In this document: positions 33,457-40,372 of the stretch, piece after piece
How positions within the stretch are numbered: the stretch's first letter is position 1
How the letters are laid out: each line of letters starts with the position of its first letter
NCBI GenBank assembly: GCA_947259355.1
Contig: CAMYMF010000007.1
Location: 13,143 to 77,142 of the forward strand
DNA length: 64,000 nt
Direction: 5' to 3'
DNA from: an uncultured Nitrospirota bacterium
GTDB taxonomy: Bacteria > CG2-30-53-67
Program-made: the position numbers and the translations under genes
The notes under the pieces: model-generated
What the model saw: the letters and a program-made list of their open reading frames with translations, nothing else
What the model was told of the DNA's origin: nothing
Databases searched by the model: none

Positions 33457-34116
33457 ATGTCAAGGAGAAACTTGGCCGTCGAGTGCCTGTGGGTCTGCGT
33501 CGGGCTTTTTGCCCTCGTGGCCGTGCTCCAGGCCGTTTCCACCGCCAGCCCCTTCGGGCGAATCATCCATGCCTTCCTGCCCCTCGTCTGGATCGGGGTC
33601 CCCTGGGTTCTGCTCAACAGGCGGGACGAATCCTTCCACGCCTTCGGCCTGCACCTGGATGAGTTGGCCCCATCGCTTCGGACCGGGCTCTTCGTCTCTT
33701 TGATTGTCCTGGTGCCCTATTTCATCTTCCTTCACCTCTGGCTCGGCCGGCCGGCGGAGGACCCCGGCAGCAGTCTTGCCGTCGGCCGGTGGCTCGGCAT
33801 GTGCCTTTTCCAGTTTGTCGCCATCGCCTTCCCGGAGGAGTTCTTCTTTCGGGGGTATCTTCACAGCCGCCTGAATCAGATCTTCGGAACCCCGCGGCGC
33901 CTCCTCGGCGCCTCCGTGGGGCTCGGACTGCCCATCACTGCAGGGATCTTCATGCTCTTTCACCTGCTGCTCTCAGTCAATCTCTGGAACGTGGGCGTTT
34001 TCTTTCCGGCGCTGGTCTTCGGGTGGCTCCGGGACAAAACGGGCTCCATTGCGGCGCCGACACTCTTTCACGCCCTCTCCAATATCGGTCTCTTCACGGT
34101 TCAGGGCAACTACTGA
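33457..34116 (+). CDS. CPBP-family intramembrane metalloprotease
   Basis: A 219-residue membrane protein with about six helices and all CPBP (CAAX protease/bacteriocin-processing) motifs: motif 1 EEFFFRGYL with Glu127, Glu128 and Arg132, motif 2 with His169 in FMLFHLLLS, and motif 3 with His205 in TLFHALSN. Members cleave peptides within or next to the membrane, and several are linked to bacteriocin maturation or self-immunity. GAGGAAAGAGG precedes the ATG. It stands just upstream of the RiPP operon but before that operon's promoter, so a link in function is possible but not shown. Confidence 0.9.
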   Translation: MSRRNLAVECLWVCVGLFALVAVLQAVSTASPFGRIIHAFLPLVWIGVPWVLLNRRDESFHAFGLHLDELAPSLRTGLFVSLIVLVPYFIFLHLWLGRPAEDPGSSLAVGRWLGMCLFQFVAIAFPEEFFFRGYLHSRLNQIFGTPRRLLGASVGLGLPITAGIFMLFHLLLSVNLWNVGVFFPALVFGWLRDKTGSIAAPTLFHALSNIGLFTVQGNY

Positions 34117-34200
34117 TTCGCCGATCCTTCACTCCTGTTGCATCGGAGATGGGAGCGCTTTTCGCAGCTAAAGCTCTTGAAGATTCTGCCGATAATAGGA

Positions 34201-34229
34201 TTGACCGCACAAAGGCGATATCTTATAAT
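34201..34229 (+). promoter_or_regulatory. Strong sigma70 promoter of the RiPP operon
   Basis: -35 TTGACC (34201-34206), 17-base spacer, -10 TATAAT (34224-34229). Start near 34236. The stretch 34230-34260 is very AT-rich compared with its surroundings. GGAG at 34256-34259 serves the GTG at 34266. Confidence 0.8.
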
Positions 34230-34265
34230 TTTTATATACATACATACATTTTCTTGGAGTATTTT

Positions 34266-35342
34266 GTGAATTTTTTTGATGTCCGGTCCGAGCCTCGGCT
34301 GCACTCGGGAGAAGTCCGGTTGATGAAACTGCTCACCCGCGTTTCCGACGTCGACACGCCCGCGATCGAAGAGACGCTCGGCGATGATATCCGCTGGGAT
34401 CGGATCGCCCACACGGCTTCAAACCTCGGTGCGGCGCCTCTTTTTTATTACCACTTGAATGGGTTGGACAAATCTGCTCAGGAAACCGTTGAATGCTTCG
34501 AAGAGCTCCGCACCGCCTATTTTCAGACCATGGCGAGTAATCTTTATCTGGCGCATGAATTCGACCAGCTCGTCGAGCGACTGTCCGAGGCGGGCATTGC
34601 CGTGCTGGCCCTCAAAGGGATGGCCCTTTGCCGAGCCCTCTACCCTTCCCCGGCGCTTCGCCCCATGGTCGACATCGATCTTCTGGTGAAGCCTGAAGAG
34701 CTGGACGGCGTTTTCGAGGTCGCACATCGCCTGGGATATCCCCCGCCTGAGAAACGCTGGAACGGCCGGACTGCGGAGGGGCATTATCATCTTCACTGCA
34801 TCAAGGCAGGGGCGGTGCCGGTCATTCTCGAGATCCACTGGGGTCTCGGCGAGCCCCGGCGCTACCGGATCGATGAGAACGAGATCTGGTCGAGGGCGCA
34901 AGCCAGCCCCCATGGACCGTACCTGGAGATGTCGGACGACGACACCTTCCTCTATCTGGCGATGCATTTCTTCAAGCATTTCCTGTTCAAACGACTGAGC
35001 TGGCTTTGCGACCTGCACGAGTGGATCGCGCAGAGACAGATCGACTGGGACTGTGTGGCCGAACGGGCTCGGGCCCAGTCGATGGCGACCTTCCTCGGCT
35101 ACACCCTGACGGTGCTGGAGGACTTCTATGAGAAAGATCTCCCCCTCGATGCCACGGCGGTGGCCGGGACCGGCCCGATCCGAAAGAATCTGCTCGACTG
35201 GTACGTGCGTGAGTATCCCATGCTCGCTCCAGACCAAAGACACACATGGCTCCATCGGCGGCTCTTCGCATTTGCCTCCATCGACCGACTCTCTGATCGG
35301 CTGCGCTTCACGTGGGACGCCCTGAAGCGGGATGTCAGCTAG
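34266..35342 (+). CDS. Nucleotidyltransferase-family protein (PF14907-like), RiPP cluster
   Basis: A 358-residue protein of the nucleotidyltransferase group that often accompanies lasso-peptide and other RiPP genes. The core signature is present: GIAVLALKGMALCRALYP followed by RPMVDIDLLVKPEEL, whose DxD pair should bind metal-nucleotide, and HCIKAGAVPVILEIHWGLGE. The C-terminal half is helical. I chose the GTG at 34266 because GGAG lies 6 bases before it and the operon promoter just upstream; an ATG at 34323 is an alternative. The reading frame is open far into the CPBP gene, which is coincidental. In phosphorylating lasso clusters, such enzymes are thought to act after the kinase. The substrate here is unproven. 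Confidence 0.85.
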   Translation: MNFFDVRSEPRLHSGEVRLMKLLTRVSDVDTPAIEETLGDDIRWDRIAHTASNLGAAPLFYYHLNGLDKSAQETVECFEELRTAYFQTMASNLYLAHEFDQLVERLSEAGIAVLALKGMALCRALYPSPALRPMVDIDLLVKPEELDGVFEVAHRLGYPPPEKRWNGRTAEGHYHLHCIKAGAVPVILEIHWGLGEPRRYRIDENEIWSRAQASPHGPYLEMSDDDTFLYLAMHFFKHFLFKRLSWLCDLHEWIAQRQIDWDCVAERARAQSMATFLGYTLTVLEDFYEKDLPLDATAVAGTGPIRKNLLDWYVREYPMLAPDQRHTWLHRRLFAFASIDRLSDRLRFTWDALKRDVS

Positions 35343-35376
35343 CCCGAAACATCTCATGGAAGCGAGATATCTTAAA

Positions 35377-36369
35377 ATGACTATGGCCTATCACTTCCAA
35401 ATTCACGGCATCTCCGTCGGCATCTCGGGGAATCGACGGAAGATCTTAGAGGAACTCGCTCGGGAGCTTCGCTTCTTTGAGGCACCGGCCAAGCCCGCCC
35501 CCCGCATTCGGGTCTCCGTCGAGGAACAAAAGCACTGGCGGGTACGCCCCGGCGCGAACATCCAATGGTCGCGGTTGCCGGGCGATGAGGTCCACTGGAT
35601 CGACGAGACGATGGTCTCTATCCTGAATGTGCCGAACCGTTCGGTTCAACTCCACCTGAGTCCCGACGCCCCCACCGATGCCGCCGTGGTGGTCCTCTTC
35701 GGAGTCATCGGCTTTCTGGTTCATCTCGATCTCGCGCAGCAGGGCGACGTGGCCGCGTTCCACGGGGCCGCACTTCACAGAGAGGGAGAAGGCATCCTCC
35801 TGCTCGGAAAGACGAATTCGGGCAAGACCTCTTTGTCCTATCTTCTGAGCAACGGGGGTTACGCCTATCTTTCGGAAGAGGACAGTTGGGTCCAGCGGGT
35901 GGCGGAGAACCGATTCACGGTCCTGCCCTACCCCCGGCGCATCCGGATCGCCGAGGCCGTCATGGAAAAACGGCCGGAGCTGAACCGTCTGCCGTACGAG
36001 AAACAGCTGGTAGAGAGCCTGCACGAAAGGGTGTTCCGCATCGATCCTCGGGTGCCCTTCCCGCAGGAGGCCCCTTTGCAACACGTGGTCGTCCTTGACA
36101 ATCGGCCCGAGGCACCCACCCTCTCGGCCCAGCCCATGACCAAGGCGGCGGCCCTGCCAGCGCTGCTGGCCTCTTTGGAAGGTGCCACTGTGGCCGACTC
36201 CCCCGAGTCGGCGCAGCAGGCGCTCATCGTTCGCAATCGCACGGCTTTTTCCGTGGCCAATTCCATCGTTGACAGCCTCAACGTCACACGTGTAACATAT
36301 AATATTATAAGGGATTTTGGCGATTTACCGGATATCATCAACCGAATTTTTGAAACGACCCGCCCATGA
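35377..36369 (+). CDS. HPr-kinase-like protein, RiPP cluster
   Basis: A protein of about 330 residues resembling the C-terminal kinase domain of HPr kinase. It has the P-loop LLLGKTNSGKTSLSYLL (residues 144-151), then YAYLSEEDSWVQR, matching the HprK acidic base segment, and FHGAALHREGEG just before the P-loop. Its N-terminal region (MAYHFQIHGISVGIS) is the one seen in RiPP-associated kinases rather than in true HprK. Relatives in paeninodin-type lasso clusters phosphorylate the C-terminal serine of the precursor; the precursor here also ends in Ser. Start is uncertain: ATGs at 35332, 35356 and 35377 are all possible and none has a strong ribosome site. The end overlaps the radical SAM gene as ATGA. 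Confidence 0.85.
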   Translation: MTMAYHFQIHGISVGISGNRRKILEELARELRFFEAPAKPAPRIRVSVEEQKHWRVRPGANIQWSRLPGDEVHWIDETMVSILNVPNRSVQLHLSPDAPTDAAVVVLFGVIGFLVHLDLAQQGDVAAFHGAALHREGEGILLLGKTNSGKTSLSYLLSNGGYAYLSEEDSWVQRVAENRFTVLPYPRRIRIAEAVMEKRPELNRLPYEKQLVESLHERVFRIDPRVPFPQEAPLQHVVVLDNRPEAPTLSAQPMTKAAALPALLASLEGATVADSPESAQQALIVRNRTAFSVANSIVDSLNVTRVTYNIIRDFGDLPDIINRIFETTRP

Positions 36370-37388
36370 TTCTCAACGCTCCCCTGCAGGTCTTCTGGTG
36401 CCTCACGGACCGCTGCAACCTGCACTGTAATTTCTGCCTCAGTGAATCCGACTCGGGGACGCGCATGCATGAGCTCTCCGTCGGGCAGCGGGCTGTCATT
36501 CTGGACGAGCTGATTACACACAGAGTTCTGAAGGTCTATCTCACCGGGGGCGAGCCGCTGCTGATTCCCGAAACCGTCGACTATGTAGAACGACTGAAAG
36601 AGGCCGGGGTTTTCACGGTATTGACCACCAACGGTGTGCTGCTCGACCCCAGCGTCATCCAAGACCTTGCGGGCCAAGAAATCGACCGCATCCAGGTCAG
36701 CCTGCACGGCGGGACGCTCGAGACCAACGATGCCATCATGGGCGGCCCCGCCTTCGAGCGGATTCTGGACGCGCTCGGCTGGATTCGGGAGGCAGGCGTC
36801 GATCTGCATGTCAAGGTGACCCTCACACGAGAGAACGCCACGGAGCTGCCCCGCCTCATCCGGAGTCTGGCTCCCTTCTCCCCTGCGCTTGTCAATGTCT
36901 CCGAGCTCGTCGCAACGGGTCGGGGCTTTGAAAACTACGAAACGCTCCGACCTTCGCTTGAAACCTTGGCGTCGGTCCGAAAGGAGATTGCGGCGCTCAG
37001 AGACGAGGGATTCAATGTCTCGTTCAAAAACCATTCGCTTGCGAGTGCTGCGAACGGACGGCCGGGCACCTGCACCGTGGGGAGTGGGCGGGCCTCCTCT
37101 TGTCTAATTCTACCGGACGGTAACGTGACCCCCTGCACCCCCGCCCATGTCTGGGGGCTTTCCAACAACGTCTTGGAACACGGCCTGCAAGGGGCCTGGC
37201 ACCGCCTGCCCCTCTACCGGGAGTTTCTCGCCCCGGAGAAGCTGCAGGGCCACTGCAAAGCGTGTGATGTCGTCGAGGAGTGTAAGGGCGGGTGTCGCGC
37301 GGAGGCCTATCTTTATACACACAACGTCTGGAGCGAATACCCCGGCTGTGTTCGCATACCACATGAAGAAAAGGAGAAAACTTCATGA
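36366..37388 (+). CDS. Radical SAM/SPASM peptide maturase
   Basis: A 340-residue radical SAM enzyme. The [4Fe-4S] SAM motif is CNLHCNFC (Cys17, Cys21, Cys24), and YLTGGEPLL is the GGE methionine-binding motif. The C-terminal SPASM domain carries CLILPDGNVTPC, then CKACDVVEECKGGC and a final Cys in YPGC, the CX2CX5CX3C pattern that holds two extra iron-sulfur clusters. SPASM enzymes usually make thioether, C-C or related crosslinks in peptides. It is coupled at both ends by ATGA overlaps: with the kinase upstream and the precursor peptide downstream, so that peptide is its likely substrate. Confidence 0.95.
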   Translation: MILNAPLQVFWCLTDRCNLHCNFCLSESDSGTRMHELSVGQRAVILDELITHRVLKVYLTGGEPLLIPETVDYVERLKEAGVFTVLTTNGVLLDPSVIQDLAGQEIDRIQVSLHGGTLETNDAIMGGPAFERILDALGWIREAGVDLHVKVTLTRENATELPRLIRSLAPFSPALVNVSELVATGRGFENYETLRPSLETLASVRKEIAALRDEGFNVSFKNHSLASAANGRPGTCTVGSGRASSCLILPDGNVTPCTPAHVWGLSNNVLEHGLQGAWHRLPLYREFLAPEKLQGHCKACDVVEECKGGCRAEAYLYTHNVWSEYPGCVRIPHEEKEKTS

Positions 37389-37567
37389 AAATAAAAGAGA
37401 AAAAGGCATGGGAAAAACCGGAGTTGACGTCGCTAAGCGTCCAAGGCAAAGGGAACGAGTTTTGTACCTCCGGCCTGACCCGTGTCGTGGTCTGTAACGA
37501 GGAAGCCAGTGGCGCCATCGGTTCGGTGGCCTGCCATCCGAACTTCAAGAACAACGTCTTCAGCTGA
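37385..37567 (+). CDS. Three-cysteine RiPP precursor peptide
   Basis: A 60-residue peptide encoded directly after the radical SAM gene (ATGA overlap). The N-terminal leader is basic and contains WEKPEL (residues 9-14), resembling the YxxPxL motif by which lasso leaders bind their PqqD-like partner. The likely core starts after the GKG at 21-23: it has Cys27, Cys37 and Cys50, spaced 9 and 12 residues apart, in a Gly/Ser/Val-rich stretch (GLTRVVVCNEEASGAIGSV), and ends in NNVFS with a terminal Ser60. Cysteine-centred thioethers and C-terminal phosphorylation are plausible. There is no Tyr, so this is not a PqqA. A PqqD-like gene follows 31 bases later. Confidence 0.85.
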   Translation: MKIKEKKAWEKPELTSLSVQGKGNEFCTSGLTRVVVCNEEASGAIGSVACHPNFKNNVFS

Positions 37568-37598
37568 TCGCAGCCAAACAACTACGGGAGAGTGATGC

Positions 37599-37880
37599 AT
37601 GACGGAGGACATGAGAAAACCGGTCGTCCCGGCGAATATCCTCTGGCGGGAAGAAGGCGGCAACACCGTGCTCTTCAATGAAGCCGACGGCGAGCCCTAT
37701 CTCCTGAATGAAACAGGAAGCCGGATTTGGGCGCTGTGCCATGAGGGGAACACCGTCCATGAGATCCTCCGGCTGCTCCCCGAGGAATTCGACGGCGATC
37801 CGACGGCCATCGAAACGGAGGCGCTGGCACTCCTGCAGGAACTGGCTGAGAAGAAACTGCTTGAGCTTCACCCCTGCTGA
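37599..37880 (+). CDS. PqqD-family leader-binding protein (RRE), RiPP cluster
   Basis: A 93-residue PqqD-type RiPP recognition element. It shows the winged-helix pattern VVPANILWREEGGNTVLFNE, GEPYLLNETGSRIWALCHEG and TVHEILRLLPEEFDGDPTAIETE, including the signature LNxTGxxIW. These proteins bind the leader peptide and present the precursor to the modifying enzyme or peptidase, like lasso B1 proteins. It stands alone instead of being fused to the radical SAM enzyme or to the peptidase. GGGAGAG lies upstream of the ATG. Confidence 0.93.
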   Translation: MTEDMRKPVVPANILWREEGGNTVLFNEADGEPYLLNETGSRIWALCHEGNTVHEILRLLPEEFDGDPTAIETEALALLQELAEKKLLELHPC

Positions 37881-37944
37881 CGGTGCAGACTCGACGGGTT
37901 TCGCCTTTCGCGCACATCATACCTTCCGGGAACATTTCGATTCC

Positions 37945-38544
37945 ATGATCCTTGCAAGATTGCTCGAATGGGGCGCAGCACTGAGGGAGATGACATTTCC
38001 CGGTCGGTCCCCGACCGGAAAGCTTTACCGGTTGTTTCTCTTCCGCTTGTTCAACCCGGCTCTGCAACTGGCCTACTCTCTTCGGCTCGCCCTTCACACC
38101 AGGAGTTTGCACCCCTTCTCCCTCTCCGATTACCGGCTTCTGGAGGAAGTGCGCAGCCGGCACAGAAGACCTTATCTGATCCGCCACTGGCTCTCTTCCA
38201 GACAGGATCCTCTGGGACCGCCGAGCCCGCATCAACTGATCGCACACGTGAACACCTTGAAGGGCCGCACGACCCACGCCCCCTGGCTCCTGCCGGAGAC
38301 GGCCCTGCTGTCCCCTTCCCTCGATTGCAAGGGGTTTGCCGTTCTGCTCTCGGCCCTCTGTGATGTCTCGGGGTTTACGAATGAGCTCTGGGTCGGACTT
38401 CCAGCAGACGGAAGTTCGGGACATGCCTGGGTCGTCATCGAGACGAGCCGGGGCAGAATCGCCGTCGATCAGTTCAACGGCTTCGGCACCGAGGAGGCCC
38501 TCTACCGACGCCGGCACCCCTTTGCGATGACTTTCAGCATCTGA
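37945..38544 (+). CDS. Transglutaminase-like cysteine protease (lasso B2-like leader peptidase candidate)
   Basis: A 199-residue protein with a helical N-terminal half and a transglutaminase-type C-terminal domain. The triad is visible: Cys128 in SLDCKGFAVLLSALCD, His160 in SSGHAWVVIE and Asp175 in RIAVDQFNGFG. In lasso peptide clusters a protein of this fold (B2) removes the leader presented by the PqqD-like B1 protein; the adjacent PqqD gene makes the same role likely here. The start is uncertain: ATG 37945 has a weak ribosome site, and a TTG at 37861 overlapping the PqqD gene would add 28 residues. It is the last gene of the operon and ends 10 bases from a convergent ABC transporter gene. 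Confidence 0.8.
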   Translation: MILARLLEWGAALREMTFPGRSPTGKLYRLFLFRLFNPALQLAYSLRLALHTRSLHPFSLSDYRLLEEVRSRHRRPYLIRHWLSSRQDPLGPPSPHQLIAHVNTLKGRTTHAPWLLPETALLSPSLDCKGFAVLLSALCDVSGFTNELWVGLPADGSSGHAWVVIETSRGRIAVDQFNGFGTEEALYRRRHPFAMTFSI

Positions 38545-38554
38545 GGCGTTCGGG

Positions 38555-39382
38555 CTAGTATTGGAGAAGGGTGCCTTCTTCCTTGGCCCGGCCCAGCGCT
38601 CGCGCGAAAAGCACCAGACTTGCGGGAAGACCCACGGCGGCCAAGAGGCCGAGCACCCGGAGATCACCGGCCAGATCGGACACCGGTGCCCCCTGCAGGA
38701 TGGCCAGACGCATGGCCCGCAGGGAGTATGTCAGCGGCAGAAGGTCCGAGCACTTCTGAAGCATCTCGGGAAGAATGGACACCGGGTAGTAGGCCCCTCC
38801 CAGAAGGGCGGAGAGCGTGCCCGCCACAAACAATACAGGGTCCCCCCGTTTGTAGCGCACCACGAAGGCTGCGGAGAGTATACCGAACGCTGAGAAACAA
38901 AGAAGGGTCACCGCCAGCACCGCCGCCACCGACAAAAGGTTGGCGTGGCCCGCCTGGAATCCGAAGAATGCGGCCCCCAGAAAAAAATAGAGCAGCACTT
39001 CATAGCCCGCAAAGAGAAAGGGCCACAGGCTGGAAGAAATCAAGATGGTCACCGGTCTCGTGGGGCTCGCCAGCATCGCTTCCAGGGTCCCCGTGATCTG
39101 CCCTTCCCGGATAGCGTTGGAAAAGGCGGATAGCCCGACGCCGAGAAAACGGTAAAAGGCGATCCCGATCAGCACAAAGGGGAAATAGGCCCCGCCGTAA
39201 GCGGCCAGACTGGGGGCGGCCGTCTCCCCCACCAGGCGTGCAATGAAGTAAAACATGAAGACCGAAAAGAAGGTCCCCACCGTCTGATAGAGAAAGGAGA
39301 GACGATAGCTCTTGGCGATGCTGAAATCCCGCTGGAGAAAAACGAAGGGAAGTGCCATGACATGTATGGCCGATTGAGACAT
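38555..39382 (-). CDS. ABC-2 type transporter permease
   Basis: A 275-residue integral membrane protein with six helices. The ABC-2 signature is seen in FSNAIREGQITGTLEAMLAS followed by PTRPVTILISSSLWPF, and in the C-terminal GGAYYPVSILPEMLQKCSDLLPLTYSLRAMR. It starts immediately after the ATPase stop (TAG-ATG), so the pair forms one exporter. The gene converges on the RiPP operon with a 10-base gap. Export of the mature peptide, or self-protection from it, is a reasonable inference from position only. Confidence 0.92.
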   Translation of the reverse strand: MSQSAIHVMALPFVFLQRDFSIAKSYRLSFLYQTVGTFFSVFMFYFIARLVGETAAPSLAAYGGAYFPFVLIGIAFYRFLGVGLSAFSNAIREGQITGTLEAMLASPTRPVTILISSSLWPFLFAGYEVLLYFFLGAAFFGFQAGHANLLSVAAVLAVTLLCFSAFGILSAAFVVRYKRGDPVLFVAGTLSALLGGAYYPVSILPEMLQKCSDLLPLTYSLRAMRLAILQGAPVSDLAGDLRVLGLLAAVGLPASLVLFARALGRAKEEGTLLQY

Positions 39383-40372
39383 CTAGCCAACCTCCTGCCG
39401 TCTGTCCGTACCGACGCGTCTCTGGGCCGGCGCATCGGCCGATTCAACATGCAGGATTCGCAACCCCTTGCGGCCGAGAAGATCCAGCACCTTGGCGAGG
39501 TTCTGCGCCGGCTCCTCGATGGTCAAGGACAGAGTGGTCGTGTCACACTGCACGGCCGATGCGAAGCCGAATCCGTCGAGAGACTTCTCGGCTCGCCTGG
39601 CATCGGGTGCGGCGTGGAAGGTGTAGCGCTTCGCAGACCCAGCACCGTCACCGATGGCGTCCAGATCGGAAACCAATTTCAGGCGACCCTTGCTGAGAAT
39701 TCCAATGCGGTCGCAAACCGCCCGAGCTTCGCTCACCCGGTGTGTCACCATCATGATCGTCGCGCCGGCATCCCGTGAGAGCGTTTGTATCGCGCCGAGC
39801 AGATTACCCGAGGCAGCGGGATCGAGTGCGCGCGTCGGCTCATCGAGCAACAACACCGCCGCGCCCCCCAGGAGGCCCCGGGCCAGAGAGAGCTTCTGAC
39901 GCATCCCCGTGGAATAGGCATCGTAGCGCTGATCCAGATAATCACCCATGAAAAGGAGCGCGGCCACTTCCTCGATCCGCCGCGCCCCGGCCCGGCCCCG
40001 CAGCCCATAAAGCGCTGCGAAGAATCGCAGGTTCTGCCGTCCGGTGAGTCGCCAGTAGAAGCTTCGCTCATCACCGAGGACCAGCCCCACGTTCTCGCGC
40101 ACCCGGGCCTCGTCGCGCACCGTGTCGTGTCCCAGCACCCGGGCCTCCCCGCCTGTGGGATGCATGAGGGTGGCCAGGATTCTCAGCAGCGTACTCTTGC
40201 CGGAGCCGTTGGGCCCGAGCAGCCCGAAGATCTCCCCCCGCTGAACCTGAAAACTCAGACCGTCAAGAACATTCAGATCGTGCGAAATGGGAGAGGCCGA
40301 AAGCCAGCGGGCAAGACCCCGTCTCGGATAAAAGGTCTTGCGGAGGTTTTGGACGTCGATGGCAGGTGGCAT
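39383..40372 (-). CDS. ABC transporter ATP-binding protein
   Basis: A 329-residue ATPase partner of the ABC-2 permease. Walker A is GPNGSGKSTLLR, the signature STGMRQKLSLARGLL, Walker B VLLLDEPTRALDP and the switch His is in MMVTHR. The C-terminal 80 residues (KRYTFHAAPDARRAEKSLDG) form the extra domain seen in DrrA/NodI-type ATPases. It is 114 bases downstream of the HD-GYP gene on the same strand. I see no convincing promoter in that gap, so it may be read from the exeA-HD-GYP promoter. Confidence 0.94.
   Translation of the reverse strand: MPPAIDVQNLRKTFYPRRGLARWLSASPISHDLNVLDGLSFQVQRGEIFGLLGPNGSGKSTLLRILATLMHPTGGEARVLGHDTVRDEARVRENVGLVLGDERSFYWRLTGRQNLRFFAALYGLRGRAGARRIEEVAALLFMGDYLDQRYDAYSTGMRQKLSLARGLLGGAAVLLLDEPTRALDPAASGNLLGAIQTLSRDAGATIMMVTHRVSEARAVCDRIGILSKGRLKLVSDLDAIGDGAGSAKRYTFHAAPDARRAEKSLDGFGFASAVQCDTTTLSLTIEEPAQNLAKVLDLLGRKGLRILHVESADAPAQRRVGTDRRQEVG

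Follow-up and report, generated by a model that had tools for sequence, protein, structure and literature searches.

HprK-like kinases that modify peptides have been described within and outside lasso peptide biosynthesis. PadeK, ThcoK, SyanK, and PsmK phosphorylate a C-terminal serine prior to lasso folding, and PsmN adds a hexose onto the phosphorylated serine (PMC9266682). The HprK-like RiPP kinases BsfK (PMC10368454) and LppK (PMC13381572) instead phosphorylate Ser3 of the core – so the analogy drawn in an initial sequence-only reading of this DNA, that such kinases act on a C-terminal serine, holds for the first four enzymes but not for these two. The LPP (linear polyphosphorylated peptide) system contains a kinase–nucleotidyltransferase (NTase) module outside lasso peptides (PMC13381572). 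HprK-like genes also occur with PqqD-like and radical SAM/SPASM genes in the SynChlorMet cassette (ScmC, ScmD, ScmE, ScmF), and in mycofactocin biosynthesis (MftA/B/C) a PqqD-like protein and a radical SAM/SPASM enzyme act on a short precursor. The open-licence papers examined describe no HprK-like kinase in a radical SAM cluster, and absence from that set proves little.

Within the window – the whole 64,000-nucleotide stretch of DNA that was analysed – we identified a close-packed run of plus-strand genes that encode, in order, a PF14907 NTase, an HprK-like kinase, a radical SAM/SPASM enzyme, a precursor peptide, a PqqD-family protein, and a B2-like peptidase, with reading frames that overlap or almost touch (Table 1). 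The NTase had earlier been placed after the kinase; its gene in fact lies upstream.

Table 1. Features of the RiPP locus and its flanks (positions in the window).
Feature	Position	Strand	Evidence and remarks
CPBP/myxosortase-family intramembrane protease	33457..34116	+	NF040914 Mrt_core 109.8 bits vs cut-off 100; cluster membership uncertain
PF14907 NTP_transf_5 nucleotidyltransferase	34266..35342	+	Pfam E 3e-51; DxD (VDIDLL) present; possible second tailoring enzyme
HprK-like kinase, 330 aa	35377..36369	+	H129, P-loop G144-T151 with K150, E167-E168
Radical SAM/SPASM maturase	36366..37388	+	PF04055 E 2e-25, PF13186 E 7.5e-5; CX3CX2C and full SPASM cysteines
Precursor peptide, 60 aa	37385..37567	+	W9xxP12xL leader motif, Cys27/37/50, terminal Phe59-Ser60
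Ser60 codon AGC, proposed phosphorylation site	37562..37564	+	Ser in 12/12 homologous precursors
PqqD-family discrete RRE (leader-binding, lasso B1-like)	37599..37880	+	PF05402 E 8.5e-15
B2-like leader peptidase	about 37945..38544, start codon uncertain	+	Cys-His-Asp, transglutaminase type; PF13471 E 0.014, below cut-off
ABC-2 permease, candidate exporter, convergent	38555..39382	-	PF01061 E 2e-13
ABC ATPase, permease partner	39383..40372	-	PF00005 E 1e-28, drrA-like

The locus shares with paeninodin-type lasso clusters a [Y/W]xxPxL leader motif, a discrete PqqD RRE, a B2-type peptidase, an HprK-like kinase, an NTase, and a precursor with a C-terminal serine. Its leader motif (W9EKPEL) conforms to the lasso-type pattern [Y/W]xxPx[L/V/I], with tryptophan in place of the paeninodin-type tyrosine, and the precursor matches the NF033524 paeninodin leader model weakly (E 0.034). 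Unlike paeninodin-type clusters, the locus has a radical SAM/SPASM enzyme and conserved cysteines, and no cyclase was seen: none of the nine proteins encoded at 33457–40372 matched a lasso macrolactam synthetase (asparagine synthase-like C protein), and the open reading frame list for 28–46 kb held no cyclase candidate. A plain lasso cluster was rejected for this reason, though the tailoring line appears to work like the paeninodin type.

Likeness to the other systems is more partial. As in LPP, an HprK-like kinase, an NTP transferase, and an RRE occur together outside lasso peptides; LPP differs in its archaeal-type signal peptidase, MsbA-like exporter, phosphorylation at Ser3, and lack of a reported radical SAM enzyme. 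The scanned cluster proteins gave no match to archaeal-type signal peptidase I and include the B2-like transglutaminase-type protein instead. Comparable kinase-linked radical SAM enzymes fall elsewhere in the tree than ours, and membership of the kinase in ScmC was rejected (TIGR04249, 21.1 bits vs a cut-off of 125). Mycofactocin clusters are without kinase, NTase, or B2, and their precursor ends differently; although TIGR03962 was the best-scoring model for the radical SAM enzyme, MftC membership was likewise rejected (158.3 bits vs a cut-off of 265).

Among the accessory genes, the B2-like peptidase motif LDCKG...GHAW...AVDQ is kept in a related genome (G005); its structure model was poor (pLDDT 50) and unusable. 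An ABC-2 permease gene also lies downstream of the cluster in G001. The PqqD gene is the only one found in its genome, which leaves the kinase without another evident RiPP partner. In four family genomes, a CPBP/myxosortase-family protease gene directly precedes the cluster or the kinase, and its product may belong to the pathway; homologues flank the kinase in L024 (9210–9869) and L025 (7823–8482) and the NTase in L159 (577–1284).

The intact P-loop of the HprK-like gene, and its place in the same operon, had been noted from the sequence at the outset, and the reading frame bears this out, containing LLLGKTNSGKTS. No HprK family model scores the kinase above its cut-off (Pfam Hpr_kinase_C, E 0.25; the best NCBIfam model is ScmC, 1.6e-4). 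Its AlphaFold model is confident (pLDDT 86.7), with Foldseek matches to PEPCK and HPr kinases (1oen, E 1e-8; 1ko7, E 1e-6; 1kkl, E 3e-6; also 1knx), and we confidently predict from this model an HprK/PEPCK-like P-loop kinase fold. His129, the P-loop Lys150, and Glu167-Glu168 align with the BsfK motif H148...K169-S170-D186-D187, which has been studied experimentally (PMC10368454).

That the gene does not encode a peptide kinase at all, being inactive or acting on another protein, is very improbable. The sub-threshold family scores and the acidic pair would be consistent with such a role: where the paeninodin-type motif calls for Asp-Asp, this kinase has Glu-Glu and those of G003, G005, and G049 have Asp-Glu, and at the first acidic position of the BsfK motif the present kinase and those of G002 and G004 have glutamate, a caveat for activity. 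Against it, the catalytic histidine, P-loop lysine, and an acidic pair are all retained in the alignment, the predicted kinase fold is confident, and the frame, which overlaps that of the radical SAM gene, is undisrupted and has been kept in at least six genomes. A contig profile search with the kinase returned only nine loci.

Profiles of the kinase and the radical SAM enzyme identified close relatives in each of the family's five other genomes (G001–G005) and in two more, G049 and G195, which belong to a different phylum-level group. In G002, G003, G004, G005, and G049 the kinase has been inherited together with this radical SAM clade, although in G003 the two genes sit on two contig ends. 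The G195 contig carries no more of the kinase than its C-terminus, adjoining the radical SAM gene, and the contigs of G001 break between the NTase and the radical SAM gene, so its kinase was not seen. A close NTase homologue lies upstream of the kinase in G002. Other close NTase homologues are unlinked in G005 and G003 (L157, 7942–9036; L158, 7991–9073), at apparent polysaccharide/glycosyltransferase loci.

A sister set of radical SAM enzymes occurs in family f107 (G250, G112, G376, and G391), where PqqD, radical SAM, and precursor genes are the only ones found together and the clusters have no kinase, NTase, or B2. The ten radical SAM proteins used for the tree form a group supported at 100/99; f107 falls within it, though its placement there is weakly supported (82/63). 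A radical SAM search across a phylum of 95 genomes found none.

The precursor gene encodes MKIKEKKAWEKPELTSLSVQGKGNEFCTSGLTRVVVCNEEASGAIGSVACHPNFKNNVFS, confirming the initial observation that the peptide ends in NNVFS with Ser60 as its last residue. We aligned it with 11 homologues from other genomes, four of them from f107. All 12 share the W..P.[LI] motif, two cysteines, and a terminal serine, while the rest of the core is very different between groups; as these sequences are interrelated and represent about five lineages, the invariance of the serine carries no proper probability. The preceding residue is phenylalanine in eight and leucine in four. The terminal serine is encoded by AGC, AGT, or TCA, and since no single serine-keeping substitution converts AGY to TCN, selection likely acts on the amino acid itself. 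Conservation at the DNA level was ruled out on these codons, the differing stops (TGA/TAA), and the unrelated downstream DNA. Invariance of this residue supports a conserved function for Ser60, with the kinase as the obvious candidate to act on it.

The G049 and G195 precursors (L023, 6614–6817; L112, 1394–1603) begin MKRREFL and carry AYAD after a W.SP motif. These starts resemble a Tat signal with a signal peptidase site, and no B2-like gene lies alongside.

Wherever a kinase accompanies the clade – here and in G002, G003, G004, G005, G049, and G195 – the precursor ends in serine, as anticipated when the idea was put forward. The terminal column is the only one with a hydroxyl in every row of the 12-precursor alignment, which makes it a very plausible site in the kinase-bearing clusters. 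Phosphorylation of a different core hydroxyl, with the terminal serine kept for another reason, would agree with the Ser3 targets of BsfK and LppK, and Thr28, Ser29, Thr32, Ser42, and Ser47 are on offer in this core. We regard it as improbable because no second hydroxyl column is conserved and the G003 precursor, whose kinase is retained, has no serine other than terminal Ser68 (its other hydroxyls are Thr2, Thr20, and Thr41).

The part of the phosphorylation idea that fared less well concerns f107: the serine is equally invariant in its four precursors, whose clusters have no kinase, so that a linked kinase alone does not explain serine conservation. Were the serine kept by a linked kinase alone, f107 would have been free to lose it, and it has not. 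We rejected f107 as a clean kinase-free control, as three of its genomes carry a separate, though very divergent, HprK–NTase pair ahead of mtnA, and neither PqqD nor a precursor lies nearby. These HprK-like and PF14907 pairs (L144, 8689–10378; L145, 3494–5186; L146, 9211–10900) are far from RiPP genes, and each of the three genomes has a second PqqD elsewhere. In the fourth, G391, a 91% complete draft, HprK was not found and the only NTase found was unlinked.

The f107 pattern fits either phosphorylation in cis and trans or a role for the terminal [Phe/Leu]-Ser in the shared radical SAM/PqqD step. Under the latter explanation the radical SAM/PqqD pair would recognise the dipeptide or use it as a substrate, and the kinase would act elsewhere or later. 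The serine is, after all, invariant throughout this radical SAM clade, one of the next-best radical SAM matches (E 1e-51, L128) is a mycofactocin MftC, and MftC acts on a C-terminal dipeptide, the Val-Tyr end of MftA (PMC7491314). The tree, however, does not place the clade specifically beside MftC. The cysteines are likewise invariant, and cysteines are the usual targets of radical SAM RiPP enzymes; we know of no radical SAM enzyme that takes a terminal serine as its substrate, which counts against this explanation. We consider it unlikely, though it is the main rival, and our best reading ranks kinase-linked modification of Ser60 above it.

The sequence-only reading had proposed that precursors without a terminal serine despite a kept kinase gene would speak against phosphorylation. 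None occurs in the clade; outside it, likely precursors beside kinase-linked radical SAM clusters end in Gly, Thr, or Glu (L068), Gly (L076), and Ala (L072), and only L078 has one ending in serine. An operon kinase by itself is thus not predictive of a terminal serine, at least among these precursors, which were called by motif and position in clusters that the radical SAM tree places far away from ours.

L068 (3980–10549) combines PqqD, radical SAM, HprK-like, and NTase genes and has four lasso-like precursors, whose last residues are G, T, E, and T. PqqD–HprK–radical SAM–B2 (PF13471) clusters occur at L077, L079, L080, and L105 in the G049 phylum; a search for precursors of these SynChlorMet-like clusters identified none. 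Short open reading frames near HprK-like kinases at L075 (1626–2283), L081 (5738–5914), L088 (10210–10380), and L106 (4246–6207) have Tat-like starts, a YxxPxI-like motif, and some Gly-rich ends, and may be precursors for a further type of kinase-linked RiPP.

Phosphorylation of Ser60 by the cluster kinase is the best-supported single hypothesis, and from comparison of the sequences we consider it probable, with modest confidence. The pathway would consist of paeninodin-type tailoring parts – leader motif, PqqD/RRE, B2-like peptidase, HprK-like kinase, and PF14907 NTase – arranged around a radical SAM/SPASM enzyme that replaces the lasso cyclase. The RRE would bind W9xxPxL of the leader, and the radical SAM enzyme would most likely crosslink the core via two or three conserved cysteines. 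The kinase would move a phosphate from ATP onto the C-terminal Ser60 hydroxyl of the leader-bound precursor. Next, the NTase may attach a nucleotide or hexose to the Ser60 phosphate, a speculative step drawn solely from analogy with PsmN. B2 would take off the leader, and the product may exit through the ABC-2 exporter. The observed basis of this scheme is gene content, intact kinase motifs with the modelled fold, and terminal serine invariance.

A broader proposal, which we put forward only tentatively and think doubtful as a whole, is that the phosphoserine C-terminus of a radical-SAM-crosslinked peptide serves as an NTase handle for a nucleotide, sugar, or polymer. The kinase–NTase module would then be shared with lasso peptides, in cis or trans, and the products would form a phospho-conjugated class of radical SAM RiPPs. 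Codon switching between AGY and TCN at the invariant serine, together with natural clusters with and without a linked kinase, offers a direct test of the role of the C-terminal serine. If the hypothesis is true, phosphopeptides would join the radical SAM RiPPs, and C-terminal serine phosphorylation would be a portable tailoring module rather than a lasso peculiarity.
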